From assembly GCA_026018925.1 (NCBI GenBank), contig JAKSZU010000016.1:2046001-2110000 (forward strand): a DNA stretch of 64,000 nt, read 5' to 3'. The stretch is from Tupaia tana (lineage: Eukaryota > Chordata > Mammalia > Scandentia > Tupaiidae). A program made the translations under genes and the position numbers. The notes below the pieces were generated by a model. The model was not told where the DNA came from, ran no database searches, and saw nothing but the letters and a program-made list of their open reading frames with translations. Below, one piece after another: positions 22,436 to 49,309 of the stretch (positions are counted from its first letter, which is position 1; each line of letters opens with the position of its first letter).

Positions 22436-22444
22436 AGGATTCAG

Positions 22445-22696
22445 GGGACCGGCAGATGGTGTAATGGTTACGTTGCTGGACTCCCACAGTCAGCCATGGT
22501 TCGAGTCCTGGACCTGGTGGCTTGAAACTTACACTGGGCGCATGTGTGTGTGTACTGAAAATTCTGAGGGGAGAATGGAGGAAAAGGGATTGTGGTGTGG
22601 TCATCCTCCTTAGGGGATGATTTCTCACTTTCTGTCTCTCTGTTTCTCCGATGAGTGCATGTGCCCTAAAGCAAAAATCTCTCTCTCTAAAAAAAG
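22445..22696 (+). mobile_element. tRNA-derived SINE, long form, at left edge of the array
   Basis: GGGGACCGGCAGATGGTGTA head, GGTTCGAGTCCTGGACC, TGCCCTAAAGCAAAAATCTC end, and a short A tail to 22696. Sixty bases separate it from the first tandem unit. Confidence 0.93.
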
Positions 22697-22751
22697 TAGG
22701 ATTTTGAATGTTTACAACACAAAGTAACAGTGAATGTCTGAGATAACGGGC

Positions 22752-22788
22752 GTACACATTGCCCTGAGTTGATCTCTGGGCAGTGTAC
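22752..22788. repeat. Inverted half-unit at the left array boundary
   Basis: GTACACATTGCCC (22752-22764) and GGGCAGTGTAC (22778-22788) are reverse complements apart from two extra bases (AT), with a 13-nt loop. The second arm is the normal array core; the first is the same core in opposite orientation. It occurs exactly where the tandem order begins. Confidence 0.75.
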
Positions 22789-25700
22789 TCCTGAGCTGAT
22801 CGCTGGACAGTGTACTCCTGAGCTGATCGCTGGGCAGTGTACTCCTGACTGATCGCTGGGCAGTGTACTCCTGAGCTGATCGCAAGACAGTTTACTCCTG
22901 ACTGATCGCTGGGCAGTGTACTCCTGACTGATATCTGGGCAGTGTACTCCTGACTGATAGCTGGGCAGTGTACACCTGACTGATCGCTGGGCAGTGTACT
23001 CCTGACTGATCGCTGGGCAGTGTACTCCTGACTGATCGCTGGGCAGTGTACTCCTGACCTGATCGCTGGGCAGTGTACTCCTGACCAGATCGCTAGGCAG
23101 TGTACTCCAGACCTGAGCACTGGGCAGTGTACTCCTGACTGATCGCTGGGCAGTGTACACCTGACTGATCGCGGGGCAGTGTACTCCTGACTGATCGCTG
23201 GGCAGTGTACTCCTGACTTCGATCACTGGGCAGTGTACTCCTGAGCTGATCGCTGGGCAGTGTACTCCTGACTGATCGCTGGGCAGTGTACTCCTGACTG
23301 ATCGCTGGGCAGTGTACTCCTGAGCTGATCGCTGGGCAGTGTACACCTGACTGATCGCTGGGCAGTGTACTCCTGAGCTGATCGCTGGGCAGTGTACACC
23401 TGACTGATCGCTGGGCAGTGTACTCCTGACTGATCGCTGGGCAGAGTACTCCTGACCTGATCGCCGGGCAGTGTACTCCTGACCTGATGGCCGGGCAGTG
23501 TACTCCAGACCTGATCGCCGGGCAGTGTACTCCTGAGCTGATCGCAGGGCACTGTACTCCTGAGCTGAACGCCGGGCAGTGTACTCCTGACTGATCGCTG
23601 GGCAGTGTACTCCTGACTGATCGCTGGGCAGTGTACTCCTGACTGATCGCTGGGCAGTGTACTCCTGAGTGATCGCTGGGCAGTGTACTCCTGAGCTGAT
23701 CGCTGGGCAGTGTACTCCTGAATGATCGCTGGGCAGTGTACTCCTGACTGATCGCTGGGCAGTGTACTTCTGACTGAGCGCTGGGCAGTGTACTCCTGAG
23801 TGATCGCTGGGCAGTGTACTCCTGAGCTGATCGCTGGGCAGTGTACTCCTGACTGATCGCCGGGCAGTGTACACCTGACTGATCGCTGGGCAGTGTACTC
23901 CTGACTGATCGCTGGGCAGAGTACTCCTGACCTGATCCTGATGCCGGGCAGTGTACTCCTGACCTGATGGCCGGGGCAGTGTACTCCTGACAGATCGCTG
24001 GGCAGTGTACTCCTGAGCTGATCGCTGGACAGTTTACTCCTGACTGATCGCTGGGCAGTGTACTCCAGACCTGATCGCAGGGCAGTGTACTCCTGACTGA
24101 TATCTGGGCAGTGTACTCCTGACTGATCGCTGGGCAGTGTACACCTGACTGATCGCTGGGCAGTGTACTCCTGACTGATCGCTGGGCAGTGTACTCCTGA
24201 CCTGATCGCTAGGCAGTGTACACAAGACCTAATCACTGGGCAGTGTACTACAAACCTGATCGCTGGGCAGGGTACTCCTTACTGATCGCTGGGCAGTGTA
24301 CTCCTGACTGATCGCTGGGCAGTGTACACCTGACTGATCGCTGGGCAGTGTACTACTGACAGATCGCTGGGCAGTGTACTCCTGACTGATCGCTGGGCAG
24401 TGTACTCGTGACTTGATCACTGGGCAGTGTACTCCTGAGGTGATCGCTGGGCAGTGTACTCCTGACTGATCGCTGGGCAGTGTACTCCTGACGGATCGCT
24501 GGGCAGTGTACTCCTGAGCTGATCGCTGGGCAGTGTACACCTGACTGATCGCTGGGCAGTGTACTCCTGAGCTGATCGCTGGGCAGTGTACACCTGACTG
24601 ATCGCTGGGCAGTGTAGTCCTGACTGATTGCTGGGCAGTGTACTCCTGACTGATCGCTGGGCAGTGTACTCCTGAGATGATCGCTGGGCAGTGTACACCT
24701 GACTGATCGCTGGGCAGTGTACTCCTGAGCTGATCGCTGGGCAGTGTACACCTGACTGATCGCTGGGCAGTGTACTCCTGACCTGATCGCTGGGCAGTGT
24801 ACACCTGACTGATCGCTGGGCAGTGTACACCTGATTGATCGCTGGGCAGTGTACTACTGACTGATCGCTGGGCAGTGTACTACTGATCGCTGGGCAGTGT
24901 ACTCCTGAGCTGATCGCTGGGCAGTGTACTCCTGACTGATCGCTGGGCAGTGTACTCCTGAGCTGATCGCTGGGCAGTGTACGACTGATCGCTGGGCAGT
25001 GTACTCCTGAGCTGATCGCTGGGCAGTGTACTGATGATCGCTGGGCAGTGTACTCCTGACTGATCGCTGGGCAGTGTATTGTACCTGACTGATCGCTGGG
25101 CAGTGTACTCCTGAGCTGATCTCTGGGCAGTGTACTCCTGAGCTGATCGCAGGGCAGTGTACTCCTGAGCTGATCGCCGGGCAGTGTACTCCTGAGCTGA
25201 TCGCCGGGCAGTGTACTCCTGAGCTGATCAGTGTACTCCTGATTTGATCGCTGTACTCCTGACCTGATCGCTGTACTCCTGACCTGATCGCCGGGCGGTG
25301 TACTCCTGACTGATCGCTGGGCAGTGTACTCCTGACAGATCGCTGGGCAGTCTCCTGACTGATCGCTGGGCAGTGTACACCTGACTGATCACTGGGCAGT
25401 GTACTCCTGACTGATCGCTGGGCAGTGTACTCCTGACCTGATCGCTGGGCAGTGTACTCCTGACCAGATCGCTGGGCAGTGTACTCCAGACCTGATCACT
25501 GGGCAGTGTACTACAAAACTGATCGCTGGGCAGTGTACTCCTGACTGATCGCCGGGCAGTGTACACCTGACTGATCGCCGGCAGTGTACTCCTGACTGAT
25601 CGCTGGGCAGTGTACTCCTGAGCTGATCGCTGGGCAGTGTACTCCTGACTGATCGCCGGGCAGTGTACTCCTGACTGATCGCCGGGCAGTGTACTCCTGA

Positions 25701-28700
25701 CTGATCGCCGGGCAGTGTACTCCTGAGCTGATCTCTGAGCAGTGTACTCCTGAGCTGATCTCTGGGCAGTGTACTCCTGAGCTGATCGCCGGGCAGTGTA
25801 CTCCAGACCTGATCGCCGGGCAGTGTACTCCTGAGCTGATCGCCGGGCAGTGTACTCCTGAGCTGATCGCCGGGCAGTGTACTCCTGACTGATCGCCGGG
25901 CAGTGTACTCCTGACTGATCGCCGGGCAGTGTACTCCTGAGCTGATCGCCGGCCAGTGTACTCCTGACTGATCGCCGGGCGGTGTACTCCTGACTGATCG
26001 CTGCGCGGTGTACTCCTGACTGATCGCTGGGCAGTGTACTCCTGACTGATCGCTGGGCAGTGTACTCCTGACTGATCGCTGGGCAGTGTACTCCTGAGCT
26101 GATCGCTGGGCAGTGTACTCCTGAGCTGATCTCTGGGCAGTGTACTCCTGAGCTGATCGCCGGGCAGTGTACTCCTGACTGATCGCAGGGCAGTGTACTC
26201 CTGAGCTGATCTCTGGGCAGTGTACTCCTTGCTGATCACTTGGCAGTGTACTCCTAACTGATCGCTGGGCAGTGTACTCCTGACTGATCGCTGGGCAGTG
26301 TACTCCTGAGCTGATCGCTGGGCAGTGTACACCTGACTGATCGCTGGGCAGTGTACTCCTGAGCTGATCTCTGGGCAGTGTACTCCTGAGCTGATCTCTG
26401 GGCAGTGTACTCCTGACTGATCGTTGGGCAGTGTACTCCTGACTGATCGCTGTGCAGTGTACTCCTGACTGATCGCTGGGCAGTGTACTCCTGACTTGAT
26501 CACTGGGCAGTGTACTCCTGAGCTGATCGCTGGGCAGTGTACTCCTGACTGATCGCTGGGCAGTGTACTCCTGAGTGATCGCTGAGCAGTGTACTCCTGA
26601 GCTGATAGCTGGGCAGTGTACACCTGACTGATCGCTGTGCAGTGTACTCCTGAGCTGATCGCTGGGCAGTGTACACCTGACTGATCGCTGGACAGTGTAC
26701 TCCTGAGTGGTCGCTGGGCAGTGTACTCCTGACCTGATCGCTGGGCAGTGTACTCCTGAGATCTGATCGCCGGGCAGTGTACTCCTGAGCTGATCGCCGG
26801 GTAGTGTACTCCTGAGCTGATCGCCGGGCAGTGTACTCCTGACTGATCGCCGGACAGTGTACTCCTGACTGATCGCTGGCCAGTGTACTCCTGACAGATC
26901 GCTGGGCAGTGTACTGCTGACTGATCGCTGGGCAGTGTACTCCTGACCAGATCGCTGGGCAGTGTACTCCAGACCTGATTACTGGGCAGTGTACTACTGA
27001 ACTGATAGCTGGGCAGTGTACTCCTGACTGATCGCTGGGCAGTGTACTCCTGACTGATCTCTGGGCAGTGTACTCCTGAGCTGATCTCTGGGCAGTGTAC
27101 TCCTGAGCTGATCGCCGGGCAGTGTACTCCTGACATGATCGCCGGGCAGTGTACTCCTGAGCTGATCGCCGGGCAGTGTACTCCTGAGCTGATCGCCGGG
27201 CAGTGTACTCCTGACTGATCGCTGGGCAGTGTACTCCTGACTGATCAATGGGCAGTGTACTGCTGACTGATCGCTGGGCAGTGTACTCCTGAGCTGATCG
27301 CTGGGCAGTGTACTCCTGACGGATCGCTGGGCAGTGTACTCCTGACTGATCGCTGGGCAGTGTATTCCTGACTGATCGCTGGTCAGTGTACTCCTGACCT
27401 GATCGCTGGGCAGTGTACTCCTGACTGATCGATCTGGGCAGTGTACTCCTGAGCTGATCTCTGGGCAGTGTACTCCTGAGCTGATCGCCAGGCAGTGTAC
27501 TCCTGAGCTGATCGCCGGGCAGTGTACTCCTGATTTGATCGCTGGGCAGTGTACCCCTGACCTGATCGCCGGGCAGTGTACCCCTGACCTGATCGCTGGG
27601 CAGTGTACCCCTGACCTGATCGCTGGGCAGTGTACTCCTGAGCTGATCGCCAGGCCGTGTACTCCTGACTGATCGCCGGGCAGTGTACTCCTGACTGATC
27701 GCCGGGCAGTGTACTACTGAACTGATTGCCGGGCAGTGTACTCCTGACTGATCGCCGGGCAGTGTACTCCTGACTGATCGCCGGGCAGTGTATACCTGAC
27801 TGATCGCTGGGCAGTGTACTCCTGACTGATCGCTGGGCAGTGTACTCCTGACTGATCGCTGGGCAGTGTATTCCTGACTGATCGCTGGGCAGTGTACTCC
27901 TGAGCTGATCGCCGGGCAGTGTACTCCTGACTGATCGCCGGGCAGTGTACTCCTGACTGATCGCTGGGCAGTGTACTCCTGACCTGATCGCTGGGCAGTG
28001 TACTCCTGACTGATCTCTGGGCAGTGTATTCCTGAGCTGATCTCTGGGCAGTGTACTCCTGAGCTGATCGCCGGGCAGTGTACTCCTGAGCTGACCGCCG
28101 GGCAGTGTACTCCTGACTGATCGCTGGGCAGTGTACTCCTGACTGATCGCTGAGCAGTGTACTCCTGAGCTGATCGCTGGGCAGTGTACTCCTGACTGAT
28201 CGCTGGGCAGTGTACACCTGACTCATCGCTGGGCAGTGTACTCCTGACTGATCGCTGGGCAGCGTACTCCTGACTGATCGCTGAGCAGTGTACTCCTGAC
28301 TGATCGCTGGGCAGTGTACTCCTGACCTGATCTCTGGGCAGTGTACTCCTGACTGATCTCTGGGCAGTGTACTCCTGAGCTGATCTCTGGGCAGTGTACT
28401 CCTGAGCTGATCGCTGGGCAGTGTACTCCTGACATGATCGCTGGGCAGTGTACTCCTGAGCTGATCGCCGGGCAGTGTACTCCTGAGCTGATCGCCGGGC
28501 AGTGTACTCCTGACTGATCGCTGGGCAGTGTACTCCTGACTGATCAATGGGCAGTGTACTGCTGACTGATCGCTGGGCAGTGTACTCCTGAGCTGATCGC
28601 TGGGCAGTGTACTCCTGACTGATCGCTGGGCAGTGTACTCCTGAGCTGATCGCTGGGCAGTGTACTCCTGACTGATCGCTGGGCAGTGTACTCCTGACCT

Positions 28701-31700
28701 GATCGCTGGGCAGTGTACTCCTGACTGATCTCTGGGCAGTGTACTCCTGACTGATCTCTGGGCAGTGTACTCCTGAGCTGATCGCCAGTGTACAGTGTAC
28801 TCCTGAGCTGATCGCTGGGCAGTGTACTGACCTGATTTGATCGCTGGGCAGTGTACTCCTGACCTGATCGCCGGGCAGTGTACCCCTGACCTGATCGCTG
28901 GGCAGTGTACCCCTGACCTGATCGCTGGGCAGTGTACTCCTGAGCTGATCGCCAGGCAGTGTACTCCTGACTGATCGCCGGGCAGTGTACTCCTGACTGA
29001 TCGCCGGGCAGTGTACTCCTGAACTGATCGCTGGGCAGTGTACTCCTGACTGATCGCTGGGCAGTGTACTCCTGACTGATCGCTGGGCAGTGTATACCTG
29101 ACTGATTGCTGGGCAGTGTACTCCTGACTGATCGCTGGGCAGTGTACTCCTGACTGATCGCTGGGCAGTGTACTCCTGACTGATCGCTGGGCAGTGTACT
29201 CCTGAGCTGATCGCCGGGCAGTGTACTCCTGACTGATCGCCGGGCAGTGTACTCCTGACTGATCGCTGGGCAGTGTACTCCTGACCTGATCGCTGGGCAG
29301 TGTACTCCTGACTGATCTCTGGGCAGTGTACTCCTGAGCTGATCTCTGGGCAGTGTACTCCTGAGCTGATCGCCGGGCAGTGTACTCCTGAGCTGATCGC
29401 TGGGCAGTGTACTCCTGACTGATCGCTGTACTCCTGACTGATCGCTGGGCAGTGTACTCCTGACTGATCGCTGGGCAGTGTACTCCTGAGCTGATCGCTG
29501 GGCAGTGTACTCCTGACTGATCGCTGGGCAGTGTACACCTGACTGATCGCTGGGCAGTGTACTCCTGACTGATCGCTGGGCAGCGTACTCCTGACTGATC
29601 GCTGAGCAGTGTACTCCTGACTGATCGCTGGGCAGTGTACTCCTGACCTGATCTCTGGGCAGTGTACTCCTGACTGATCTCTGGGCAGTGTACTCCTGAG
29701 CTGATCTCTGGGCAGTGTACTCCTGAGCTGATCACCGGGCAGTGTACTCCTGACTGATCGCTGGGCAGTGTACTCCTGAGCTGATCTCTGGGCAGTGTAC
29801 TCCTGACTGATCGCTGGGCAGTGTACTCCTGACTGATCGCTGGGCAGTGTACTCCTGACTGATCGCTGGGCAGTGTACTCCTGACTGATCGCTGGGCAGT
29901 GTACTCCTGACTTGATCGCTGGGCAGTGTACTCCTGAGCTGATCGCTGGGCAGTGTACTCCTGACCTGATCGCCGGGCAGTGTACTCCTGACCTGATCGC
30001 CGGGCAGTGTACTCCTGAGCTTGATCTCTGGGCAGTGTACTCCTGAGCTGATCGCTGGGCAGTGTACTCCTGAGCTGATCTCTGGGCAGTGTACTCCTGG
30101 CTGATCGCTGGGCAGTGTACTCCTGACTGATCGCTGGGCAGTGTACTCCTGACTGATCGCTGGGCAGTGTACTCCTGAGCTGATCGCTGGGCAGTGTACT
30201 CCTGACTGATCGCTGGGCAGTGTACTCCTGACTGATCGCTGGGCAGTGTACTCCTGACTGATCGCTGGGCAGTGTACTCCTGAGCTGATCTCTGGGCAGT
30301 GTACTCCTGAGCTGATCGCTGGGCAGTGTACTCCTGACTGATCGCTGGGCAGTGTACTCCTGACTGATCGCTGTGCAGTGTACTCCTGACTGATCGCTGG
30401 GCAGTGTACTCCTGACTGATCGCTGGGCAGTGTACTCCTGACTTGATCACTGGGCAGTGTACTCCTGAGCTGATCGCTGGGCAGTGTACACCTGACTGAT
30501 CGCTGGGCAGTGTACTCCTGAGCTGATCGCTGGGCAGTGTACTCCTGACTGATCGCTGGGCAGTGTACTCCTGAGCTGATCGCTGGGCAGTGTACTCCTG
30601 AGCTGATCGCTGGGCAGTGTACTCCTGACTGATCGCTGGGCAGTGTACTCCTGAGCTGATCGCTGGGCAGTGTACTCCTGACTGATCGCTGGGCAGTGTA
30701 CTCCTGACTGATCGCTGGGCAGTGTACTCCTGACTGATCGCTGGGCAGTGTACTCCTGACTGATCGCTGGGCAGTGTACTCCTGAGCTGATCGCTGGGCA
30801 GTGTACTCCTGAGCTGATCGCTGGGCAGTGTACTCCTGACTGATCGCTGGGCAGTGTACTCCTGAGCTGATCGCCTGGGCAGTGTACTCCTGACTGATCG
30901 CTGGGCAGTGTACTCCTGACTGATCGCTGGGCAGTGTACTGCTGACTGATCGCTGGGCAGTGTACTCCTGAGCTGATCGCTGGGCAGTGTACTCCTGAAG
31001 GATCGCTGGGCAGTGTACTCCTGACTGATCGCTGGGCAGTGTACTCCTGACTGATCGCTGGGCAGTGTACTCCTGACTGATCGCTGGGCAGTGTACTCCT
31101 GACTGATCGCTGGGCAGTGTACTCCTGAGCTGATCTCTGGGCAGTGTACTCCTGAGCTGATCGCTGGGCAGTGTACTCCTGAGCTGATCGCTGGGCAGTG
31201 TACTCCTGATTGGATCGCTGGGCAGTGTACTCCTGACCTGATCGCCGGGCAGTGTACTCCTGACCTGATCGCCGGGCAGTGTACTCCTGACCTGATCGCT
31301 GGGCAGTGTACTCCTGAGCTGATCGCTGGGCAGTGTACTCCTGACTGATCGCTGGGCAGTGTACTCCTGACTGATCGCTGGGCAGTGTACTCCTGACCTG
31401 ATCGCTGGGCAGTGTACTCCTGAGCTGATCGCTGGGCAGTGTACTCCTGACTGATCGCTGGGCAGTGTACACCTGACTGATCGCTGGGCAGTGTACTCCT
31501 GAGCTGATCGCTGGGCAGTGTACACCTGACTGATCGCTGGGCAGTGTACTCCTGACTGATTGCTGGACAGTGTACTCCTGAACTGATCGCTGGGCAGTGT
31601 ACTCCTGAACTGATCGCTGGGCAGTGTACTCCTGATTGATCGCTGGGCAGTGTACTCCTGAGCTGATCACTGGGCAGTGTACACCTGACTGATCGCTGGG

Positions 31701-34700
31701 CAGTGTACTCCTGAGCTGATCGCTGGGCAGTGTACTCCTGAGCTGATCGCTGGGCAGTGTACTCCTGAGCTGATCGCTGGGCAGTGTACTCCTGAGCTGA
31801 TCTCTGGGCAGTGTACTCCTGAGCTGATCGCTGGGCAGTGTACTCCTGAGCTGATCGCTGGGCAGTGTACTCCTGAGCTGATCGCTGGGCAGTGTACTCC
31901 TGACCTGATCGCTGGGCAGTGTACTCCTGACCTGATCGCCGGGCAGTGTACTCCTGACCTGATCGCCGGGCAGTGTACTCCTGACCTGATCACTGGCAGT
32001 GTACTCCTGAGCTGATCGCTGGGCAGTGTACTCCTGACTGATCGCTGGGCAGTGTACTCCTGACTGATCGCTGGGCAGTGTACTCCTGACTGATCGCTGG
32101 GCAGTGTACTCCTGACTGATCGCTGGGCAGTGTACTCCTGACTGATCGCTGGGCAGTGTACTCCTGAGCTGATCGCTGGGCAGTGTACTCCTGAGCTGAT
32201 CTCTGGGCAGTGTACTCCTGACTGATCGCTGGGCAGTGTACTCCTGACTGATCGCTGGGCAGTGTACTCCTGACTGATCGCTGGGCAGTGTACTCCTGAC
32301 CTGATCGCTGGGCAGTGTACTCCTGAGCTGATCGCTGGGCAGTGTACTCCTGAGCTGATCGCTGGGCAGTGTACTCCTGACTGATCGCTGGGCAGTGTAC
32401 TCCTGACTGATCGCTGGGCAGTGTACTCCTGACTGATCGCTGGGCAGTGTACTCCTGACTGATCGCTGGGCAGTGTACTCCTGACTGATCGCTGGGCAGT
32501 GTACTCCTGACCTGATCGCTGGGCAGTGTACTCCTGACCAGATCGCTGGGCAGTGTACTCCTGACTGATTACTGGGCAGTGTACTACTGAACTGATCGCT
32601 GGGCAGTGTACTCCTGACTGATCGCTGGGCAGTGTACTCCTGACTGATCTCTGGGCAGTGTACTCCTGAACTGATCGCTGGGCAGTGTACTCCTGAGCTG
32701 ATCGCCGGGCAGTGTACTCCTGACATGATCGCCGGGCAGTGTACTCCTGAGCTGATCGCCGGGCAGTGTACTCCTGAGCTGATCGCTGGGCAGTGTACTC
32801 CTGACTGATCGCTGGGCAGTGTACTCCTGACTGATCGCTGGGCAGTGTACTCCTGACTGATCGCTGGGCAGTGTACTCCTGAGCTGATCGCTGGGCAGTG
32901 TACTCCTGACGGATCGCTGGGCAGTGTACTCCTGACTGATCGCTGGGCAGTGTACTCCTGACTGATCGCTGGGCAGTGTACTCCTGACTGATCGCTGGGC
33001 AGTGTACTCCTGACTGATCGCTGGGCAGTGTACTCCTGAGCTGATCTCTGGGCAGTGTACTCCTGAGCTGATCGCTGGGCAGTGTACTCCTGAGCTGATC
33101 GCTGGGCAGTGTACTCCTGATTTGATCGCTGGGCAGTGTACTCCTGACCTGATCGCTGGGCAGTGTACTCCTGACCTGATCGCTGGGCAGTGTACTCCTG
33201 ACCTGATCGCTGGGCAGTGTACTCCTGAGCTGATCGCTGGGCAGTGTACTCCTGACTGATCGCCGGGCAGTGTACTCCTGACTGATCGCTGGGCAGTGTA
33301 CTCCTGACCTGATCGCTGGGCAGTGTACTCCTGACCTGATCACTGGGCAGTGTACTCCTGACTGATCGCTGGGCAGTGTACTCCTGACTGATCGCTGGGC
33401 AGTGTACTCCTGACTGATCGCTGGGCAGTGTACTCCTGAGCTGATCGCTGGGCAGTGTACTCCTGACTGATCGCTGGGCAGTGTACTCCTGACTGATCGC
33501 TGGGCAGTGTACTCCTGAGCTGATCGCTGGGCAGTGTACTCCTGAACTGATCTCTGGGCAGTGTACTCCTGATTGATCGCTGGGTAGTGTACTCCTGAGC
33601 TGATCACTGGGCAGTGTACACCTGACTGATCGCTGGGCAGTGTACTCCTGAGCTGATCGCTGGGCAGTGTACTCCTGAGCTGATCACTGGGCAGTGTACT
33701 CCTGAGCTGATCGCTGGGCAGTGTACTCCTGAGCTGATCTCTGGGCAGTGTACTCCTGAGCTGATCGCTGGGCAGTGTACTCCTGAGCTGATCGCCGGGC
33801 AGTGTACCCCTGAGCTGATCGCTGGGCAGTGTACTCCTGACTGACCTGATCGCCTGGACCGTGTACTCCCTGACCTGATCGCCGGGCAGTGTACCCCTGA
33901 CCTGATCGCCGGGCAGTGTACCCCTGACCTGATCACCAGGCAGTGTACTCCTGAGCTGATCGCTGGGCAGTGTACTCCTGACTGATCGCTGGGCAGTGTA
34001 CTCCTGACTGATCGCTGGGCAGTGTACTCCTGACTGATCGCTGGGCAGTGTACTCCTGACTGATCGCTGGGCAGTGTACTCCTGACTGATCGCTGGGCAG
34101 TGTACTCCTGAGCTGATCTCTGGGCAGTGTACTCCTGAGCTGATCTCTGGGCAGTGTACTCCTGACTGATCGCTGGGCAGTGTACTCCTGACTGATCGCT
34201 GGGCAGTGTACTCCTGACTGATCGCTGGGCAGTGTACTCCTGACTTGATCGCTGGGCAGTGTACTCCTGAGCTGATCGCTGGGCAGTGTACTCCTGACTG
34301 ATCGCTGGGCAGTGTACTCCTGACTGATCGCTGGGCAGTGTACTCCTGAGCTGATCGCTGGGCAGTGTACTCCTGACTGATCGCTGGGCAGTGTACTCCT
34401 GAGCTGATCGCTGGGCAGTGTACTCCTGACTGATCGCTGGGCAGTGTACTCCTGACTGATCGCTGGGCAGTGTACTGCTGACTGATCGCTGGGCAGTGTA
34501 CTCCTGACTGATCGCTGGGCAGTGTACTCCTGACCTGATCGCTGGGCAGTGTACTCCTGAACTGATCTCTGGGCAGTGTACTCCTGACTGATCGCTGGGC
34601 AGTGTACTCCTGAGCTGATCGCTGGGCAGTGTACTCCTGACTGATCGCTGGGCAGTGTACTCCTGAGCTGATCTCTGGGCAGTGTACTCCTGAGCTGATC

Positions 34701-37700
34701 GCTGGGCAGTGTACTCCTGAGCTGATCGCTGGGCAGTGTACTCCTGAGTGATCGCTGGGCAGTGTACTCCTGAGCTGATCGCTGGGCAGTGTACTCCTGA
34801 GCTGATCGCTGGGCAGTGTACTCCTGACTGATCGCTGGGCAGTGTACTCCTGACCAGATCGCTGGGCAGTGTACTCCTGAGCTGATCGCTGGGCAGTGTA
34901 CTCCTGACTGATCGCTGGGCAGTGTACTCCTGACCTGATCGCTGGGCAGTGTACTCCTGACCTGATCGCTGGGCAGTGTACTCCTGAGCTGATCGCTGGG
35001 CAGTGTACTCCTGAGCTGATCGCTGGGCAGTGTACTCCTGACTTGATCGCTGGGCAGTGTACTCTGATGAGCTGATCGCTGGGCAGTGTACTCCTGACTG
35101 ATCGCTGGGCAGTGTACTCCTGAGCTGATCGCTGGGCAGTGTACTCCTGACTGATCGCTGGGCAGTGTACTCCTGAGCTGATCTGGACAGTGTACTCCTG
35201 ATCGCTGGGCAGTGTATTCCTGACCTGATCGCCGGGCAGTGTACTCCTGACTGATCGCTGGGCAGTGTACTCCTGAACTGATCGCTGGGCAGTGTACTCC
35301 TGAGCTGATCGCTGGGCAGTGTACTCCTGAGCTGATCGCTGGGCAGTGTACTCCTGACTGATCGCTGGGCAGTGTACTCCTCCTGACTGATCGCTGGGCA
35401 GTGTACTCCTGACTGATCGCTGGGCAGTGTACTCCTGACTGATCGCTGGGCAGTGTACTCCTGAGCTGATCGCTGGGCAGTGTACTCCTGACTGATCGCT
35501 GGGCAGTGTACTCCTGACCTGATCGCTGGGCAGTGTACTCCTGAACTGATCGCTGGGCAGTGTACTCCTGACTGATCGCTGGGCAGTGTACTCCTGACCT
35601 GATCGCTGGGCAGTGTACTCCTGACCTGATCGCTGGGCAGTGTACTCCTGAGCTGATCGCTGGGCAGTGTACTCCTGAGCTGATCTCTGGGCAGTGTACT
35701 CCTGACTGATCGCTGGGCAGTGTACTCCTGAGCTGATCGCTGGGCAGTGTACACCTGACTGATCGCTGGGCAGTGTACTCCTGAGCTGATCGCTGGGCAG
35801 TGTACTCCTGAGCTGATCGCTGGGCAGTGTACTCCTGAGCTGATCTCTGGGCAGTGTACTCCTGACTTGATCGCTGGGCAGTGTACTCCTGAGCTGATCG
35901 CTGGGCAGTGTACTCCTGACTGATCGCTGGGCAGTGTACTCCTGAGATCGCTGTATCGCTGGGGGCAGTGTACTCCTGACTGATCGCTGGGCAGTGTACT
36001 CCTGAGCTGATCGCTGGGCAGTGTACTCACTGACCTGATCGCTGGGCAGTGTACTCCTGACTTGATCGCTGGGCAGTGTACTCCTGAGCTGATCGCTGGG
36101 CAGTGTACTCCTGACTGATCGCTGGGCAGTGTACTCCTGACCTGATCGCTGGGCAGTGTACTCCTGAGCTGATCGCTGGGCAGTGTACTCCTGAGCTGAT
36201 CGCTGGGCAGTGTACTCCTGAGCTGATCTCTGGGCAGTGTACTCCTGACTTGATCGCTGGGCAGTGTACTCCTGACCTGATCGCTGGGCAGTGTACTCCT
36301 GACTGATCGCTGGGCAGTGTACTCCTGAGCTGATCGCTGGGCAGTGTACTCCTGACTGATCGCTGGGCAGTGTACTCCTGACTGATCGCTGGGCAGTGTA
36401 CTCCTGACCTGATCGCTGGGCAGTGTACTCCTGACCTGATCGCTGGGCAGTGTACTCCTGACTGATCGCTGGGCAGTGTACTCCTGACTGATCGATCTCC
36501 TGCTGGCTGGGCAGTGTACTCCTGAGCTGATCGCTGGGCAGTGTACTCCTGAGCTGATCGCTGGGCAGTGTACTCCTGACTGATCGCTGGGCAGTGTACT
36601 CCTGACTCCTGAGATCGCTGGGCAGTGTACTCCTGACTGATCGCTGGGCAGTGTACTCCTGAGCTGATCGCTGGGCAGTGTACTCCTGACCTGATCGCTG
36701 GGCAGTGTACTCCTGAGCTGATCGCTGGGCAGTGTACTCCTGAGCTGATCGCTGGGCAGTGTACTCCTGACTGATCGCTGGGCAGTGTACTCCTGACCTG
36801 ATCGCTGGGCAGTGTACTCCTGACCTGATCGCTGGGCAGTGTACTCCTGACTGATCGCTGGGCAGTGTACTCCTGACTGATCGCTGGGCAGTGTACTCCT
36901 GACTGATCGCTGGGCAGTGTACTCCTGACTGATCGCTGGGCAGTGTACTCCTGACTGATCGCTGGGCAGTGTACTCCTGAGCTGATCGCTGGGCAGTGTA
37001 CTCCTGAGCTGATCGGTGTACTCCTGAGCTGATCGCTGGGCAGTGTACTCCTGAGCTGATCGCTGGGCAGTGTACTCCTGAGCTGATCGCTGGGCAGTGT
37101 ACACCTGACTGATCGCTGGGCAGTGTACTCCTGAGCTGATCGCTGGGCAGTGTACTCCTGACTGATCGCTGGGCAGTGTACTCCTGACTGATCGCTGGGC
37201 AGTGTACTCCTGAGCTGATCACTGGGCAGTGTACTCCTGAACTGATCGCTGGGCAGTGTACTCCTGAGCTGATCGCTGGGCAGTGTACTCCTGACTGATC
37301 GCTGGGCAGTGTACTCCTGAGCTGATCGCTGGGCAGTGTACTCCTGAGCTGATCGCTGGGCAGTGTACTCCTGACTGATCGCTGGGCAGTGTACTCCTGA
37401 CTTGATCGTTGGGCAGTGTACTCCTGACTGATGATCGCTGGGCAGTGTACTCCTGACTGATCGCTGGGCAGTGTACTCCTGACTTGATCGCTGGGCAGTG
37501 TACTCCTGACTTGATCTCTGGGCAGTGTGGGCAGTGTACTCCTGACTGATCTGATCGCTGGGCAGTGTACACCTGACTGATCGCTGGGCAGTGTACTCCT
37601 GACCTGATCGCTGGGCAGTGTACTCCTGAGCTGATCGCTGGGCAGTGTACTCCTGACTGATCGCTGGGCAGTGTACTCCTGACTTGATCGCTGGGCAGTG

Positions 37701-40700
37701 TACTCCTGAGATCTGATGAGCTGCTGGGCAGTGTACTCCTGACTGATTGCTGGGCAGTGTACTCCTGACCTGATCGCTGGGCAGTGTACTCCTGACCTGA
37801 TCGCTGGGCAGTGTACTCCTGAGCTGATCGCTGGGCAGTGTACACCTGACTGATCGCTGGGCAGTGTACTCCTGACCGCTGATCGCTGGGCAGTGTACTC
37901 CTGAGCTGATCTCTGGACAGTGTACTCCTGAGCTGATCGCTGGGCAGTGTACACTGATCGCTGGGCTGACCTGACTGATCGCTGGGCAGTGTACTCCTGA
38001 CCTGGGCATGTACTCCTGACTGGGCAGTGTACTCTGAGCTGATCTCCGGGCAGTGTACTCCTGACCTGATCGCTGGGCAGTGTACTCCTGACTTGATCGC
38101 TGGGCAGTGTACTCCTGAGCTGATCGCTGGGCAGTGTACTCCTGACTGATCGGGCAGTGTACTCCTGAGCTGATCGCTGGGCAGTGTACTCCTGACTGAT
38201 CGCTGGGCAGTGTACTCCTGACTGATCGCTGGGCAGTGTACTCCTGACCTGATCGCTGGGCAGTGTACTCCTGAGCTGATCGATCGCTGGGCAGTGTACT
38301 CCTGAGCTGATCGCTGGGCAGTGTACTCCTGACTTGATCGCTGGGCAGTGTACTCCTGACTTGATCGCTGGGCAGTGTACTCCTGAGCTGATCGCTGGGC
38401 AGTGTACTCCTGACTCATCGCTGGGCAGTGTACTCCTGAGCTGATCGCTGGGCAGTGTACTCCTGACTGATCGCTGGGCAGTGTACTCCTGACTGATCGC
38501 TGGGCAGTGTACTCCTGAGCTGATCGCTGGGCAGTGTACTCCTGACTGATCGCTGGGCAGTGTACACCTGACTGATCGCTGGGCAGTGTACTCCTGACCT
38601 GATCGCTGGGCAGTGTACTCCTGAGCTGATCGAGTGTACTCCTGGGCAGTGAGGTGATCTCTCTGAGCTGATCGCTGGGCAGTGTACTCCTGACTTGATC
38701 GCTGGGCAGTGTACTCCTGAGCTGATCGCTGGGCAGTGTACTCCTGACTGATCGCTGGGCAGTGTACTCCTGACTGATCGCTGGGCAGTGTACTCCTGGG
38801 CAGTGACTCCTGACTGACTGATCGCTGGGCAGTGTACTCCTGACTTGATCGCTGGGCAGTGTACTCCTGAGCTGATCGCTGGGCAGTGTACTCCTGAGCT
38901 GATCGCTGGGCAGTGTACTCCTGACTGATCGCTGGGCAGTGTACTCCTGAGCTGATCGCTGGGCAGTGTACTCCTGAGCTGATCGCTGGGCAGTGTACTC
39001 CTGACTGATCGCTGGGCAGTGTACTCCTGACCTGATCGCTGGGCAGTGTACACCTGACTGATCGCTGGGCAGTGTACTCCTGAGCTGATCGCTGGGCAGT
39101 GTACTCCTGAGCTGATCGCTGGGCAGTGTACTCCTGACTGATCGCTGGGCAGTGTACTCCTGACTCCTGACTTGATCGCTGGGCAGTGTACTCCTGAGCT
39201 GATCGCTGGGCAGTGTACACCTGACTGATCGCTGGGCAGTGTACTCCTGACTTGATCGCTGGGCAGTGTACTCCTGAGCTGATCGCTGGGCAGTGTACAC
39301 CTGACTGATCGCTGGGCAGTGTACTCCTGACCTGATCGCTGGGCAGTGTACTCCTGAGCTGATCGCTGGGCAGTGTACTCCTGACTGATCGCTGGGCAGT
39401 GTACTCCTGACTGATCGCTGGGCAGTGTACTCCTGAGCTGATCGCTGGGCAGTGTACTCCTGACTGATCGCTGGGCAGTGTACTCCTGACTGATCGCTGG
39501 GCAGTGTACTCCTGACTGATCGCTGGGCAGTGTACTCCTGAGCTGATCGCTGGGCAGTGTACTCCTGAGCTGATCTCTGGGCAGTGTACTCCTGAGCTGA
39601 TCGCTGGGCAGTGTACTCCTGAGCTGATCGCTGGGCAGTGTACTCCTGACCTGATCGCTGGGCAGTGTACTCCTGACCTGATCGCTGGGCAGTGTACTCC
39701 TGACTTGATCGCTGGGCAGTGTACTCCTGACTGATCGCTGGGCAGTGTACTCCTGAACTGATCGCTGGGCAGTGTACTCCTGACTTGATCGCTGGGCAGT
39801 GTACTCCTGAGCTGATCTCTGGGCAGTGTACTCCTGTACTCCTGACTGATCGCTGGGCAGTGTACTCCTGACCTGATCGCTGGGCAGTGTACTCCTGAGC
39901 TGATCGCTGGGCAGTGTACTCCTGACTGATCACTGGGCAGTGTACTCCTGACCTGATCGCTGGGCAGTGTACTCCTGAGCTGATCTCTGGGCAGTGTACT
40001 CCTGACTGATCGCTGGGCAGTGTACTCCTGAGCTGATCGCTGGGCAGTGTACTCCTGAGCTGATCTCTGGGCAGTGTACTCCTGAGCTGATCGCTGGGCA
40101 GTGTACTCCTGAGCTGATCTCTGGGCAGTGTACACCTGACTGATCGCTGGGCAGTGTACTCCTGACTGATCGCTGGGCAGCGTACACCTGACTGATCGCT
40201 GGGCAGTGTACTCCTGACCTGATCGCTGGGCAGTGTACTCCTGAGCTGATCGCTGGGCAGTGTACACCTGACTGATCGCTGGGCAGTGTACTCCTGACTT
40301 GATCGAGCTGGGCAGTGTACTCCTGAGCTGATCGCTGGGCAGTGTACTCCTGACTGATCGCTGGGCAGTGTACTCCTGACCTGATCGCTGGGCAGTGTAC
40401 TCCTGACCTGATCGCTGGGCAGTGTACTCCTGAGCTGATCGCTGAGCAGTGTACACCTGACTGATCGCTGGGCAGTGTACTCCTGACTTGATCGCTGGGC
40501 AGTGTACTCCTGACTGATCGCTGGGCAGTGTACTCCTGACTTGATCGCTGGGCAGTGTACTGATCTCCGGGCAGTGTACTCCTGACCTGATCGCTGGGCA
40601 GTGTACTCCTGACTGATCGCTGGGCAGTGTACTCCTGAGCTGATCGCTGGGCAGTGTACTCCTGACTGATCGCTGGGCAGTGTACTCCTGACTGATCGCT

Positions 40701-43700
40701 GGGCAGTGTACTCCTGACCTGATCGCTGGGCAGTGTACTCCTGAGCTGATCGACTGGGCAGTGTACTCCTGAGCTGATCGCTGGGCAGTGTACTCCTGAC
40801 TTGATCGCTGGGCAGTGTACTCCTGAGCTGATCGCTGGGCAGTGTACTCCTGACTGATCGCTGGGCAGTGTACTCCTGACTGATCGCTGGGCAGTGTACT
40901 CCTGACTTGATCGCTGGGCAGTGTACTCCTGACTGATCGCTGGGCAGTGTACTCCTGAGCTGATCGCTGGGCAGTGTACTCCTGAGCTGATCGCTGGGCA
41001 GTGTACACCTGACTGATCGCTGGGCAGTGTACTCCTGAGCTGATCGCTGGGCAGTGTACTCCTGAGCTGATCGCTGGGCAGTGTACACCTGACTGATCGC
41101 TGGGCAGTGTACTCCTGACCTGATCGCTGGGCAGTGTACTCCTGACTGATCGCTGGGCAGTGTACTCCTGACTGATCGCTGGGCAGTGTACTCCTGAGCT
41201 GATCGCTGGGCAGTGTACACCTGAGTGTACTGATCGCTGGGCAGTGTACTCCTGACTTGATCGCTGGGCAGTGTACTCCTGAGCTGATCGCTGGGCAGTG
41301 TACACCTGACTGATCGCTGGGCAGTGTACTCCTGACTTGATCGCTGGGCAGTGTACTCCTGAGCTGATCGCTGGCAGTGTACACCTGACTGATCGCTGGG
41401 CAGTGTACTCCTGACCTGATCGCTGGGCAGTGTACTCCTGAGCTGATCGCTGGGCAGTGTACTCCTGACTGATCGCTGGGCAGTGTACTCCTGACTTGAT
41501 CGCTGGGCAGTGTACTCCTGAGCTGATCGCTGGGCAGTGTACTCCTGACTGATCGCTGGGCAGTGTACTCCTGACCTGATTTCTGGGCAGTGTACTCCTG
41601 ACCTGATCGCTGGGCAGTGTACTCCTGAGCTGATCGCTGGGCAGTGTACTCCTGAGCTGATCTCTGGGCAGTGTACTCCTGAGCTGATCGCTGGGCAGTG
41701 TACTCCTGAGCTGATCTCTGGCAGTGTACTCCTGACCTGATCGCTGGGCAGTGTACTCCTGACCTGATCGCTGGGCAGTGTACTCCTGACTGATTGCTGG
41801 GCAGTGTACTCCTGAGCTGATCGCTGGGCAGTGTACTCCTGAATCTGATCGCTCCTGACTTTATCGCTGGCAGTGTACTCCTGACTTGATTGCTGGGCAG
41901 TGTACTCCTGATGGGCAGTGTACTGATCTCTGGGCAGTGTACTCCTTACTGATCGCTGGGCAGTGTACTCCTGACCTGATCGCTGGGCAGTGTACTCCTG
42001 ACCTGATCGCTGGGCAGTGTACTCCTTTGCTGATCACTGGGCAGTGTACTCCTGACCTGATCGCTGGGCAGTGTACTCCTGACCTGATCGCTGGGCAGTG
42101 TACTCCTGAGCTGATCGCTGGGCAGTGTACTCCTGAGCTGATCGCTGGGCAGTGTACTCCTGAGCTGATCTCTGGGCAGTGTACTCCTGAGCTGATCGCT
42201 GGGCAGTGTACTCCTGAGCTGATCTCTGGGCAGTGTACACCTGACTGATCGCTGGGCAGTGTACTCCTGACCTGATCGCTGGGCAGTGTACTCCTGACTG
42301 ATCGCTGGGCAGTGTACTCCTGACCTGATCGCTGGGCAGTGTACTCCTGAGCTGATCGCTGGGCAGTGTACACCTGAGTGTACTGATCGCTGGGCAGTGT
42401 ACTCCTGACTGATCGCTGGGCAGTGTACTCCTGAGCTGATCGCTGGGCAGTGTACTCCTGACTGATCGCTGGGCAGTGTACTCCTGACCTGATCGCTGGG
42501 CAGTGTACTCCTGACTGATCGCTGGGCAGTGTACTCCTGAGCTGATCGCTGGGCAGTGTACACCTGACTGATCGCTGGGCAGTGTACTCCTGACTTGATC
42601 GCTGGGCAGTGTACTCCTGAGATCTGGGCATCTCTGAGCTGACAGTGTACTCCTGAGCTGATCGCTGGGCAGTGTACACCTGACTGATCGCTGACTGATC
42701 GCTGGGCAGTGTACTCCTGACCTCATCGCTGGGCAGTGTACTCCTGGAGCTGATCTCCGGGCAGTGTACTCCTGACCTGATCGCCGGGCAGTGTACTCCT
42801 GACTTCATCGCTGGGCAGTGTACTCCTGAGCTGATCGCTGGGCAGTGTACTCCTGACTGATCGCTGGGCAGTGTACACCTGACTGATCGCTGGGCAGTGT
42901 ACTCCTGACCTGATCGCTGGGCAGTGTACTCCTGAGCTGATCGACTTATCGGGCAGTGTACTCCTGAGCTGATCGCTGGGCAGTGTACTCCTGACTTGAT
43001 CGCTGGGCAGTGTACTCCTGAGCTGATCGCTGGGCAGTGTACTCCTGACTGATCGCTGGGCAGTGTACACCTGACTGATCGCTGGGCAGTGTACTCCTGA
43101 CTTGATCGCTGGGCAGTGTACTCCTGAGCTGATCGCTGGGCAGTGTACTCCTGACCTGATAGCTGGGCAGTGTACTCCTGAGCTGATCGCTGGGCAGTGT
43201 ACTCCTGAGCTGATCGCTGGGCAGTGTACTCCTGACTTCGATCGCTGGGCAGTGTACTCCTGACTTGATCGTTGGGCAGTGTACTCCTGACTGATCGCTG
43301 GGCAGTGTACTCCTGAATGATCGCTGGGCAGTGTACTCCTGACTGATCGCTGGGCAGTGTACTCCTGAGCTGATCGCTGGGCCGTGTACTCCTGAGCTGA
43401 TCGCTGGGCAGTGTACACCTGACTGATCGCTGGGCAGTGTACTCCTGAGCTGATCGCTGGGCAGTGTACTCCTGAGCTGATCGCTGGGCAGTGTACACCT
43501 GACTGATCGCTGGGCAGTGTACTCCTGACTTGATCGCTGGGCAGTGTACTCCTGAGCTGATCGCTGGGCAGTGTACACCTGACTGATCGATGGGCAGTGT
43601 ACTCCTGACTTGATCGCTGGGCAGTGTACTCCTGAGCTGATCGCTGGGCAGTGTACACCTGACTGATCGCTGGGCAGTGTACTCCTGACCTGATCGCTGG

Positions 43701-44747
43701 GCAGTGTACTCCTGAGCTGATCGCAGGGCAGTGTACACCTGACTGATCGCTGGGCAGTGTACTCCTGACTTGATCTGAGTGTACTCCTGAGCTATTCGCT
43801 GGTCAGTGTACTCCTGACTGATCGCTGGGCAGTGTACTCCTGACTGATTTCTGGGCAGTGTACTCCTGACCTGATCGCTGGGCAGTGTACTCCTGAGCTG
43901 ATCGCTGGCAGTGTACTCCTGAGCTGATCTCTGGGCAGTGTACTCCTGACTTGATCGCTGGGCAGTGTACTCCTGACCTGATCGCTGGGCAGTGTACTCC
44001 TGAGCTGATCGCCGGGCAGTGTACTCCTGACTGATCGCTGGGCAGTGTACTCCTGACCTTATTGATCTGGGCAGTGTACTCCTGACCTGATCGCTGGGCA
44101 GTGTACTCCTGACTGATCGCTGGGCAGTGTACTCCTGACTTGATCGCTGGGCAGTGTACTCCTGACTTGATCGCTGGGCAGTGTACTCCTGAGCTGAGTG
44201 TACTCCTGACTTGATCGCTGGGCAGTGTACTCCTGAGCTGATCTCTGGGCAGTGTACTCCTGAGCTGATCGCTGGGCAGTGTACACCTGACTGATCGCTG
44301 GGCAGTGTACTCCTGCCCTCATCGCTGGGCAGTGTACTCCTGAGCTGATTCCTGGGCAGTGTACTCCTGACCTGATCGCCGGGCAGTGTACTCCTGACTT
44401 GATCGCTGGGCAGTGTACTCCTGAGCTGATCGCTGGGCAGTGTACTCCTGACTGATCGCCGGGCAGTGTACCTGACTGATCGCTGGGCAGTGTACTCCTG
44501 ACCTGATCGCTGGGCAGTGTACTCCTGAGCTGATCGCTGGGCAGTGTACTCCTGAGTTGATCTCTGGGCAGTGTACTCCTGAGCTGATCGCTGGGCAGTG
44601 TACTCCTGACTTGATTGCTGGGCAGTGTACACCTGACTGATCGCCGGGCAGTGTACTCCTGAGCTGATCATTGGGCAGTGTACTTCTGACTTGATTGCTG
44701 GGCAGTGTACTCCTGACTTGATCGCTGGGCAGTGTATTCCTGAACTG
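22757..44747. repeat. 22-kb tandem array of 26/27-bp units (VNTR / satellite)
   Basis: The unit has the core GATCGCTGGGCAGTGTAC, then TCCTGA, then C, GC, CC or CT and a T leading into the next GATC. The spacer choice makes units of 26 or 27 bp. At about 26.5 bp per unit, 22 kb holds of the order of 800 units. Units carry a GATC and a GTAC palindrome and about 58% GC. Common variants at the core are GATCGCTGGG (dominant), GATCTCTGGG and GATCGCCGGG (mainly 25-30 kb); GATCACTGGG and GATTGCTGGG look like CpG decay. Units with TACACC in place of TACTCC are nearly always 26-mers. Edge units are the most diverged. No transposon interrupts it. It has no CENP-B box, no telomere motif and no similarity to alpha satellite that I can see. 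I do not recognise the family, and nothing shows a function. Confidence 0.98.
27240..29760. repeat. Higher-order duplication of about 1.3 kb inside the array
   Basis: Rare unit variants recur in the same order at constant spacing. TGATCAATGGGCAGTG is at 27242 and 28541, TATACCTGACTGAT at 27791 and 29093, and AGCGTACTCCTGACTG at 28261 and 29582. Spacings are 1299, 1302 and 1321 bp; the last is enlarged by a partial unit near 29425. This is roughly 49 units duplicated as a block. Confidence 0.8.
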
Positions 44748-44790
44748 AAAAGTTAAATTGTGCCCCATAAATATGAACAATTACTGTATG

Positions 44791-45048
44791 TCTTTTTTTT
44801 TTTTTTTTTTTTAAGCTTTTTGCCATAGAATGCATGTACTTGGCGCGGGGGGGGGGGAGAGGAAAAGAAATCATCATCCCTTGGGTGCGATGGTTATGCC
44901 AAAATCTTTTCTCCATTCTTCTCTTGGGATTTTGGGAATGCATGCATAGACGCCCGATGTGAGTGTCAAGTCACTGGGTCTGGGACTTGAACTGTGGTTA
45001 GCCATGCGGGAGTCCAATGACTCAATCACCATGCTACCTGCTGACCCC
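44791..45048 (-). mobile_element. tRNA-derived SINE, long form, at right edge of the array
   Basis: A T run at 44792-44813, AAGCTTTTTGCCATAGAATG, a G11 tract at 44847-44857 within the GA-rich region, and the head ACCTGCTGACCCC ending at 45048. It sits about 43 bp beyond the last tandem unit, in the opposite orientation to the SINE at the left edge. Confidence 0.92.
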
Positions 45049-47732
45049 ACTATATGTTATTTTTAAAAAAGTTTGAAAGATAAAGGACTTTGTTCACTTT
45101 TTGGAAAGTGAATTTCCCGGTGACTTTTCTCCCGTTAGCACCTCTCCAACGGTTTTGAAGCTGTGTTTCAATTCCCTTCAGGGCTATTTGGTTTCTTTCC
45201 CCCATAAGCGAATGAAGGTAAGCAAAGTTCCTACTGAGCGTTTCCTTCCCAGGCCTTTCTGGAGGGCAAGGGCCGAGTGCGTCTCCTGCCGTCGGTTTCA
45301 TTCCCTCTCCTGGTGCTGAGAACACCAGCAGGACTTGGTTTGTAAAAGCAGCCACATTTGTTAGATTTGCCAAGTAAGCTGCCTGTGGTAAAGATAGGAC
45401 TACGGAAACTTCTAGTTAAAGAGTCTTTCACAGCACAGGGGTGAGTGCTCAAGCGGGGAGGACTCCTAGTTGGAGAGGACTCCTAATCTGGTGGGATCCC
45501 AGACCCGCACAGTCTGCAGCCCTGAACTGATGTCACCGTCACTAAGGTGTGTGCTCCGTGGTCTGCAGCTGGATCAGGCTTCCTGCCTCCTTGTCTCCAA
45601 ACTTTGCCTTAGAAAAATGGGTGTAAATCTCCCCTCCCGCTCTTTTGCTCGGAGAACCCTCATTCCTCTTTGAAGCATGCACTCAGATATAAGTTTCAAA
45701 ACCTCCTGGTGGCAGAGGGGCTGAATCTGGTGCTATGCACCATGCAACGGTCCCAGTCTCCAGCCGGTGGGAACTTTGGCAGTTTGCCCCTGACTTGCAC
45801 ATTCAGTGAGGCCGGGAGATCTCTGGTTCTCTGCGTACAGGAGGTACTGCTGTTTCACTGACTTCTTAGCACTAGAAAGGAAAGGGAAGGAGTCATCTAA
45901 CAAAGGCATCCTTGAGTGTAACAGAGGAATAGATGACCTACAAACTAAAAATGCGGTACATTGCAGCCACAGAAGAGATCATGCGTTTACCACACAAATA
46001 CACGACCTTCTCAGCTTGAGAACTCACCCAGAATACAGACGCGGAATTTCTTGGAGTTGTTTAGATGCAGCCTCCATGTCTGTAGAACGAGGATCTCGCT
46101 TACATTCCTAGATTTCACTTCAGACCTAAGCATTTGGAAAATGGCAATGTGTTTCTGAAGTCTCCCTGAGGAGACCACAACATGGCGGGGTATCGTTCAA
46201 ACCTAAGGTGTCCCAGGCTGCATCCTGGTTCAGATCAGCCGCCCCAAGACGCTCAGCCTTCAGGTGCTATAACCTGCCTGTGCAGGCCAGACCCGCTGCC
46301 CCGACGTCGTCCTGCGTGTGCCCGCAGACTTCCGCTGTGAGTTAGGTCCCCCTCAAGTGCCCGACCCCCATCTGCTCCCCAAACTGGCTTCCGGCGGTGT
46401 TTCCTTGGTCATTTTAAACTTGAAGACTCAAACCCATTGTTTCTCACATCTCCCCGCTCTCTGCCATCATCAGAAACATTATTTTACAGGCTTTCTTTTC
46501 CAGTTTCCTGTGTGAGCTGAACTCCCAGCTTTTCCTCTCCAAACTTTCCATGAAGCCTTCTTGGTCTGTTAAAAGCAAATTCTCCCAAATCCTCGCTTCT
46601 CCTCTAAACATCTGCAGGGTGTTGTTTCCCCACGGACACTCCCTCCCCTCGGGTCCTCTAAAGTAAGTTTTATCCTGTGTACCTTCGTGCCCCAAGGCCT
46701 GCTTGTGGGCCCGTGGTCCCTGTTTCTGCTTTACTCCAGACTCCTTCCTTCTGTTGAGAACACACGCTCCTCTGCGGTGTTTGTCATCGGACTTTATCTG
46801 CCATGTACTCCTCATCAGCGTGTCTCGCCATGCCCTAGGAGCACCCCCTTCAGTGAGGCTTGGCCACCTCCGACATCCAGAGTACCCTGCTGCTCAGATC
46901 CGGAGCTCCTCATTCCCGGGAACTTTCTTTTCTCTCACATCTCATGAGACCATGCTCCAGTTCTGGCCATCACTCACGACTGCGTTGCCTCTGAAATCTT
47001 GACTTTACATTTCAAGAACCTTCCTTCAAAGTATTTGTTCTCCTCTAACTATCTCAGCAATTCTCGTTGAGACTTCAGATCTGTCAACTCAGTGCTTTTC
47101 CACTATCCATTGCCATCTTTGCTTTCCTTACTTCCACATTTATTAATATGAAAGCCCTCTTCGATCCTGTGTATCCTCTTACTTCTCCCCAAGTATTGTT
47201 ACGAATTTTGCAAAAGAATTGCATAAAGTTTCTGCTTGTACTTCATCACCTTTCGATGTCACCTCTAATTGCTACAATGGCGTCTGTCCTCATCACTCTA
47301 CCCAAAGTAACTGGAACAAAGATAAAGTTATTATTCACCAAAGCCGGTGCTCAGTTTGTTACCCTCGACTTAGTTTATCCCTTGGTAGTTTTAATTGTAG
47401 ACATCTTTTTAAAAAACCCTTTCTATTGTTGTTTATGATACTAAATCCTTTTGGTTTTCCTTATTGGCTACTCTTTCTGGGAGTCCTCGGTGGCTACTGT
47501 TGAGTGTTGACTTGGCCAGAACTCTGTCCTTACCGCTTTCTGTGTTGCACTTTCTTTGTCAGTGCTCTTGACCAGTTCAAATGACTGACCAACCACACAC
47601 TAACAGCTTTCCAGGGTGTCCCTACTGCCTGGGCCTCGCTGCTGAACCCAACTCATTTATGCACCTCCTAGCCTGAAATTATTTTCCAAGGTTATGAAAT
47701 GACCACAGTCAATAAAAAATATTAATCTTTTC
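45049..47732. other. Unassigned sequence, no gene seen
   Basis: This is the longest stretch without a recognised young repeat. 46400-47560 is pyrimidine-rich and, from about 47210, has scattered wording reminiscent of L2 (CTCATCACTCTACCC, TACTCTTTCTGGGAG), too weak to call. Short open frames on both strands show nothing recognisable. Confidence 0.45.
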
Positions 47733-47908
47733 TTTCTCCTTCCTTCCTTCCTTCCTTCCTTCCTTCCTTCCTTCCTTCCTTCCTTCCTTCTTTCTTTCTT
47801 TCTTTCTTTCTTTCTTTTTCTTTCTTTCTTTCTTTCTTTCTTTCTCTTTCTTCCTTTTTCTTTCTTCTTCCTTTCTCTTTCTCTCTCTTTCTTTCTTTCT
47901 CTCTCTCC

Positions 47909-47964
<56 letters not shown>

Positions 47965-47968
47965 TTTT
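47733..47968. repeat. CT-rich tetranucleotide microsatellite, (TTCC)n then (TTCT)n
   Basis: TTCC repeats at 47740-47789, then TTCT repeats with interruptions to 47968. It abuts the antisense 3' end of the next SINE, so on the minus strand it is the expanded AAAG/AAGG tail of that SINE. Confidence 0.95.
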
Positions 47969-48215
47969 CTTAGCTTTGCTGTAGGGTGTGTACTCTCCAG
48001 AGAGAGATGGGGGTCGTAGGGAGGAGGAGGTGGGAAATCACCCCCAGGAGGGGTGTCCATACCTAATTCCCTTCTCCTCTAGTTTCCTCTTGGCATTTTG
48101 GGCATGTGTGCAAAAGCACCTGGGGTGATTTTCAAGCTGCTGGGTCAGAGACTCAAACCATGGAGTTGCCCAAGTGGGATCCAGCACCTTAACTTTCATG
48201 CCTCCTGCTGGTCCT
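47969..48215 (-). mobile_element. tRNA-derived SINE with expanded tail
   Basis: TTAGCTTTGCTGTAGGGTGTG, CACCCCCAGGAGGGGTG, GCTGCTGGGTCAGAGACTC, and the head CCTCCTGCTGGTCC ending at 48215. It is moderately diverged. Confidence 0.9.
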
Positions 48216-48339
48216 CCAAAATATTTTTTTTTAATCAAAATGTTTTCTATCCCAAGTCTCTCTGTTTCAATAAATAGTATCCTCATTCATTTACTGTTTA
48301 AGACTAAAATATAAAAATTGTCCCGCTTTCTTTTCCCTC

Positions 48340-49030: not shown

Positions 49031-49044
49031 TGTCTTATTAATTG

Positions 49045-49160: not shown

Positions 49161-49309
49161 CATGGTCTACCTACCTCGTTCTTGACGTGAGTGGTTTTCA
49201 AATGCCTCTCTCCATGTGCATTCTATCCGGGGTAGCTTGACATTATTGTAGATCAGTATTCCTCAAATTTTTGGCCTTAGGGGACTTGTACAATTTAAAA
49301 AATTATTGG

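Follow-up and report, generated by a model that had tools for sequence, protein, structure and literature searches.

The window, a 64,000-nucleotide stretch of Tupaia tana DNA, contains an array of 830 units that are arranged head to tail without interruption from position 22763 to 44748, as delimited by wrap-around alignment, and that form a single locus in this assembly. The array is a long but ordinary kind of minisatellite, and no sign of coding was found. Very probably, we are dealing with a non-coding, single-locus minisatellite whose seed was amplified by duplication of multi-unit blocks and which is being scrambled by point mutation.

Extent and composition of the array

Each unit, read on the plus strand, consists of the core TGATCGCTGGGCAGTGTACTCCTGA and a spacer that is C, GC, CC, CT, AC or another sequence. 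Tandem Repeats Finder (TRF), which had been proposed as a check, recovered the array at 22770-44748 with 830.1 copies of the consensus TGATCGCTGGGCAGTGTACTCCTGAC and a score of 33040. Together with the wrap-around alignment, this placed the bounds given in the original prediction (22757..44747) within a few bases of the correct ones. The predicted uninterrupted tandem structure of about 22 kb with a 26/27-bp unit was borne out as well, as a foreign insert was looked for in the alignment over 22763-44748 and none was found. The length is 26 bp in 336 units and 27 bp in 420 (756 of the 830 taken together), while the remaining 74 have other lengths. This alternation is mostly due to the variable spacer, which sits after ...CCTGA of the unit (C in 331 of the 830 units, GC in 263, CC in 112, CT in 50, AC in 14 and other sequences in 60). 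Altogether, 204 distinct unit strings are present. With head-to-tail units well inside the size range of minisatellites, given as 9-100 bp (PMC2599865), and with a mosaic of variant repeats built on five main spacers, the array has the features of this class.

The unit had been described as belonging to no recognised family and as unrelated to alpha satellite, the CENP-B box and telomere repeats, and our searches agree with this. Neither the essential bases of the CENP-B box, in the form that we take to be the essential pattern, nor TTAGGG occur in the array on either strand, so that it resembles neither alpha-type centromeric nor telomeric repeats. Five pieces of the unit (16-18 bases) had no match in 5.39 million papers, searched as text only, and nothing related was found among papers on 26-bp mammalian arrays, as judged by title. 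Exact scans of viral contigs (24 bases) and of prokaryote genome contigs (21 bases) were empty, and blastn of 1001 array bases against plasmids returned no relatives.

A single locus in the assembly

The contig on which the array lies measures 86.1 Mb (86,101,715 bases), and about 2.07 Mb of it precede the array. The whole assembly (2,948,224,869 bases, i.e., 2.95 Gb, in 1198 contigs) was searched on both strands for the 20-base core pattern GCTGGGCAGTGTACTCCTGA with at most two mismatches, and the reversed pattern served as the control. The core matched 789 times (785 forward, 4 reverse) and the control three times (1 forward, 2 reverse). As many as 782 of the 789 core matches, 522 of them exact, lie within the array. 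A search of the same genome for further loci of the unit had been suggested; it left seven core matches outside the array, compared with three for the control, and among those listed were three on contigs C242 and C264, each with two mismatches. A search of the genome with a 78-base unit sequence gave 76 matches, all of them in the array, one of the two first-look candidates having been scored. Within the surrounding 144 kb, the 20-base core had no site outside the array even when up to four mismatches were allowed, and no other tandem repeat of period 7 or more exceeds 250 bp (TRF score 80). The longest words listed as shared between the array and the rest of the window measure 10 bases.

Satellite DNA typically comprises many large arrays, often in centromeric or heterochromatic regions, whereas a single 22-kb array is present here. 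With 782 of the 789 core matches in one array, the element therefore represents, in this assembly, a minisatellite confined to one locus instead of a satellite family with dispersed copies, and the satellite reading offered in the original prediction was not upheld. It is accordingly very unlikely that the array is a piece of some satellite family of this species, be it dispersed or pericentromeric. The array is long and organised head to tail, its 22 kb fall between the usual sizes of minisatellites and of satellites, the 78-base search initially scored only one of its two candidates, and satellite regions may be collapsed or missing in the assembly. Against these points stand the concentration of core matches at this site with a control of three, the SINE-rich flanks with their piece of L1 and the absence of the essential CENP-B pattern. 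One count over the whole genome can thus distinguish a striking solitary array from a family of satellites.

Internal structure of the array

To profile divergence, each unit was compared with four main variants, and its edit distance to the closest one was averaged over bins of 40 units. The left part (22770..29102, plus strand) is more degenerate, its six bins having means of 0.90-1.78 edits per unit, and it holds 43 of the 65 units that bear GCCGGGC. The most uniform stretch lies at 30154..33336 (plus strand; three bins with means of 0.25, 0.45 and 0.38); the longest exact repeat within the array (212 bp) has two copies, which both start here, at 31000 and 32911. Bin means vary between 0.42 and 1.93 in the right part (35467..44748, plus strand), where degenerate bins at 37605 (1.40), 41843 (1.78) and 43979 (1.93) occur alongside a uniform one at 40775 (0.42), and where 43 of the 50 units with a CT spacer and 50 of the 74 odd-length units are found. 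A clean gradient from centre to edge is not apparent, which counts against amplification followed by scrambling.

The array is a mosaic of variants that contains duplicated blocks. Nine lags (49, 50, 72, 73, 78, 80, 150, 163 and 211 units) score above 18.1 bits, the highest value from only three shuffles of the unit order. The duplicated blocks span 8-39 units at offsets of 1299-5590 bp and are imperfect (e.g., 13 of 17 unit pairs identical). The clearest ones lie on the plus strand at 27055..29730 (end approximate) with lags of 49 and 50 units, or about 1.3 kb, scores of 55.6 and 42.7 bits and 22 of 39 and 9 of 11 identical unit pairs, respectively. That the best block has only 22 of 39 identical pairs and that the threshold comes from just three shuffles likewise speaks against the preferred account. 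Neighbouring spacers are correlated (chi 128.9; 500 shuffles confined to blocks of 40 units gave a mean of 27.8 and did not exceed 60.6). We also looked for a higher-order repeat and found no fixed multimer over lags of 1-399 units, the peak of unit identity being 0.157 (lag 20) versus 0.107 expected. Expansion of perfect tracts at present was considered as well. Runs of identical units comprise at most five units, which is at the level of shuffled arrays (mean longest run 4.9), and slippage of perfect tracts is therefore not visible now. Taken together, this fits an array that grew by duplication of multi-unit blocks and was then scrambled better than one whose perfect tracts are slipping at present.

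The concentration of odd-length units at 35467-44748 may stem from real rearrangement or from consensus errors, and shortened units show little microhomology. A single clean deletion accounts for 12 of the 35 shortened units, with only 0-2 bases of homology. Like the short runs of identical units, this is a point against the preferred account. An assembly artefact, i.e., a true array that is much shorter or differently ordered, would find some backing in the 74 odd-length units among the 830, 50 of them after 35.4 kb, and in the 23 shortened units that cannot be derived from the main variants by one clean deletion. Long exact self-copies are nevertheless absent, the 212-bp repeat being the longest, and the make-up of variants shifts along the array, unlike that of a copied stretch. 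We therefore regard an artefact as improbable.

Mutation at the CpG of the unit

Substitutions were compared for the 749 of the 830 units that could be aligned without gaps. The two CpG transitions occur 17.0 times on average and in 12.0 distinct unit types, whereas other transitions have means of 5.48 occurrences (median 2) and 3.09 distinct unit types. Change at CpG is thus raised in the array, which contains 809 CpGs at an observed/expected ratio of 0.44, compared with 0.38 in the flanks. The ordinary reading of this raised decay would be germline methylation of the CpG in the unit.

Open reading frames on the minus strand

All three minus-strand frames are largely open, the longest extending over 3397 aa, and this could be taken as a sign of a coding repeat. 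The consensus unit has no stop triplet in any of the three minus frames, however, so that openness is automatic and does not need selection. Units of 26 and 27 bp mix the reading frames, and changes that create stops are not avoided: the 13 possible stop-creating changes on the minus strand are represented by 3.0 distinct unit types each, compared with 2.4 for the 62 others, and the array contains 52 minus-strand stops over the three frames. A Pfam search with the 3397-aa frame gave no match. The long frames reflect a stop-free unit and not a gene, and a coding function of the array on this strand is extremely unlikely.

Genomic surroundings

The array had been predicted to lie within interspersed-repeat DNA, and SINEs, L1 pieces and an EEF1A copy are indeed found around it, a content that by itself points to a mammal, probably a placental one. 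The flanks (1-22762 and 44749-64000) are densely populated by a SINE family whose members measure about 260 bp and may derive from a tRNA, some copies being up to 93% alike; ARAGORN detected no tRNA gene in the window. One SINE copy (22441..22700, plus strand) adjoins the array on the left without being part of it. When the right flank piece 44753-45060 was searched against the genome, and 40 of 4327 candidates were scored, 39 matches of 72-83% identity were obtained in addition to the self-match (100%), and these would represent SINE copies. A U6 snRNA copy of full model length (103.5 bits) is located at 51701-51807 on the minus strand. Eight chosen frames of the window were compared with Pfam; five had no match and one, in a flank, contained an L1 ORF1 domain. 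The remaining two lie next to each other at 54769-56142 with a stop between them, contain EEF1A domains and probably belong to a processed pseudogene. When frames of 45 aa or more with little repeat content were extracted from the surrounding 144 kb, 713 were obtained, among them 116 with at least 85 aa. Of 115 frames of at least 85 aa, 103 were searched against Pfam, while four from the EEF1A region and eight others were set aside. DnaJ, DnaJ_C, HMG_box and DUF2039 were each hit by one member, and these may be pseudogenes. No gene was recognised in the 144 kb by this coarse search (the 103 frames just mentioned and the eight chosen ones), in which smaller exons are missed.

Other tandem repeats were seen at both ends of the contig. 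Its start (1-4147) carries a minisatellite with the 20-bp unit GTGTGAGGCTTGGCCTGCTG; the part at 220-697 is in the opposite orientation. The last 10 kb (86091716-86101715) consist of a tandem array with a period of 78/168 bp and 144 TTAGGG words, without any run of four or more; in appearance, this is a subtelomeric satellite that includes telomere-like portions. With a view to a clustering of minisatellites near this chromosome end, a small set of four further 10-kb samples was inspected, in which arrays above 100 bp, all shorter than 160 bp, were present only at 45 Mb.

Origin of the array

The array would have originated from a short seed at this site through repeated duplication of multi-unit blocks, either by unequal sister exchange or by gene-conversion-like repair such as synthesis-dependent strand annealing (SDSA), the mechanism proposed for classical minisatellites (PMC2599865). 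Block duplication would also have mixed the variant units, and the array would be scrambled by point mutation, the unit's only CpG decaying at an increased rate. The recombination mechanism of array growth is a matter of inference; the array would be polymorphic in length and in all likelihood does not serve any function itself. In the pedigree study PMC12240836, none of the 27 de novo repeat structural variants reported was at a recombination breakpoint, and crossover between homologues is therefore the less likely route of exchange.

A degenerate seed was not found in the array flanks, and a second allele was not encountered, both of which weaken this scenario. Aligned to the unit, the 60 bp on each side do not stand out from random pieces of the flanks, since 36% and 96% of 2000 of these reached scores as high; a unit look-alike at 22371-22430 fared no better (36%). 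Instability driven by hairpins was also considered and discarded: the DNA fold of 247 bases has a z of 0.26, and 122 of 200 shuffles were at least as stable. A search for recombination motifs, with what we presume to be the appropriate patterns, found neither the PRDM9 13-mer nor chi-like motifs in the array, which has a single GGGCAGG on each strand.

Comparison with known minisatellites and possible impact

In size and unit length, the array resembles the human CACNA1C 30-bp VNTR. This element, TRACT, is described as ranging in allele length from 3 to over 30 kb, with about 24 kb for the long alleles, as being built of near-identical variants and as showing no new change in a four-generation pedigree (PMC13131567); a 30-mer in 100-3000 copies is linked to the same disorders in PMC10502081. 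It is the closest case found by anatomy: both occupy one locus and mix single-base variants of a unit near 30 bp, and the long TRACT alleles mean that a single minisatellite of such length is not as unusual as had been claimed (PMC13131567). TRACT differs in its unit sequence, its intronic position and its known polymorphism, whereas no gene was recognised around the array studied here, and its longest perfect tracts reach up to 26 units, compared with at most five. Human MS32, CEB1 and MSY1 likewise have units of 9-100 bp, variant-repeat mosaics and SDSA gene conversion as the proposed mechanism (PMC2599865). Mutation and polymorphism were measured for these loci, whereas our array is known from one assembly, and the MSY1 array studied there had 77 units versus 830. 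The minisatellite at the contig start is also a short-unit tandem array of the same genome and differs by its 20-bp unit, its length of about 4 kb in the stretch fetched and its location at a contig end.

Long TRACT alleles show an association with lower expression in fibroblasts and testis (PMC13131567). By analogy, the array could be a regulatory VNTR that alters the expression of a neighbouring gene. Unit size and length similar to those of long TRACT alleles (PMC13131567) and the 809 CpGs would be in line with such a role, while the coarse search recognised no gene in 144 kb; we consider the chances of this to be slim. Equally doubtful is the notion of a recent, species-specific element whose approximately 800 CpGs would form a focus of heterochromatin or recombination about 2 Mb from the chromosome end and influence nearby chromatin. 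If true, the CpG-rich focus would act on its surroundings as TRACT alleles may in humans. The non-coding minisatellite described here opens no new mechanism; very long and assembled from flank to flank, it provides a clean case for the growth and decay of a variant-repeat mosaic.
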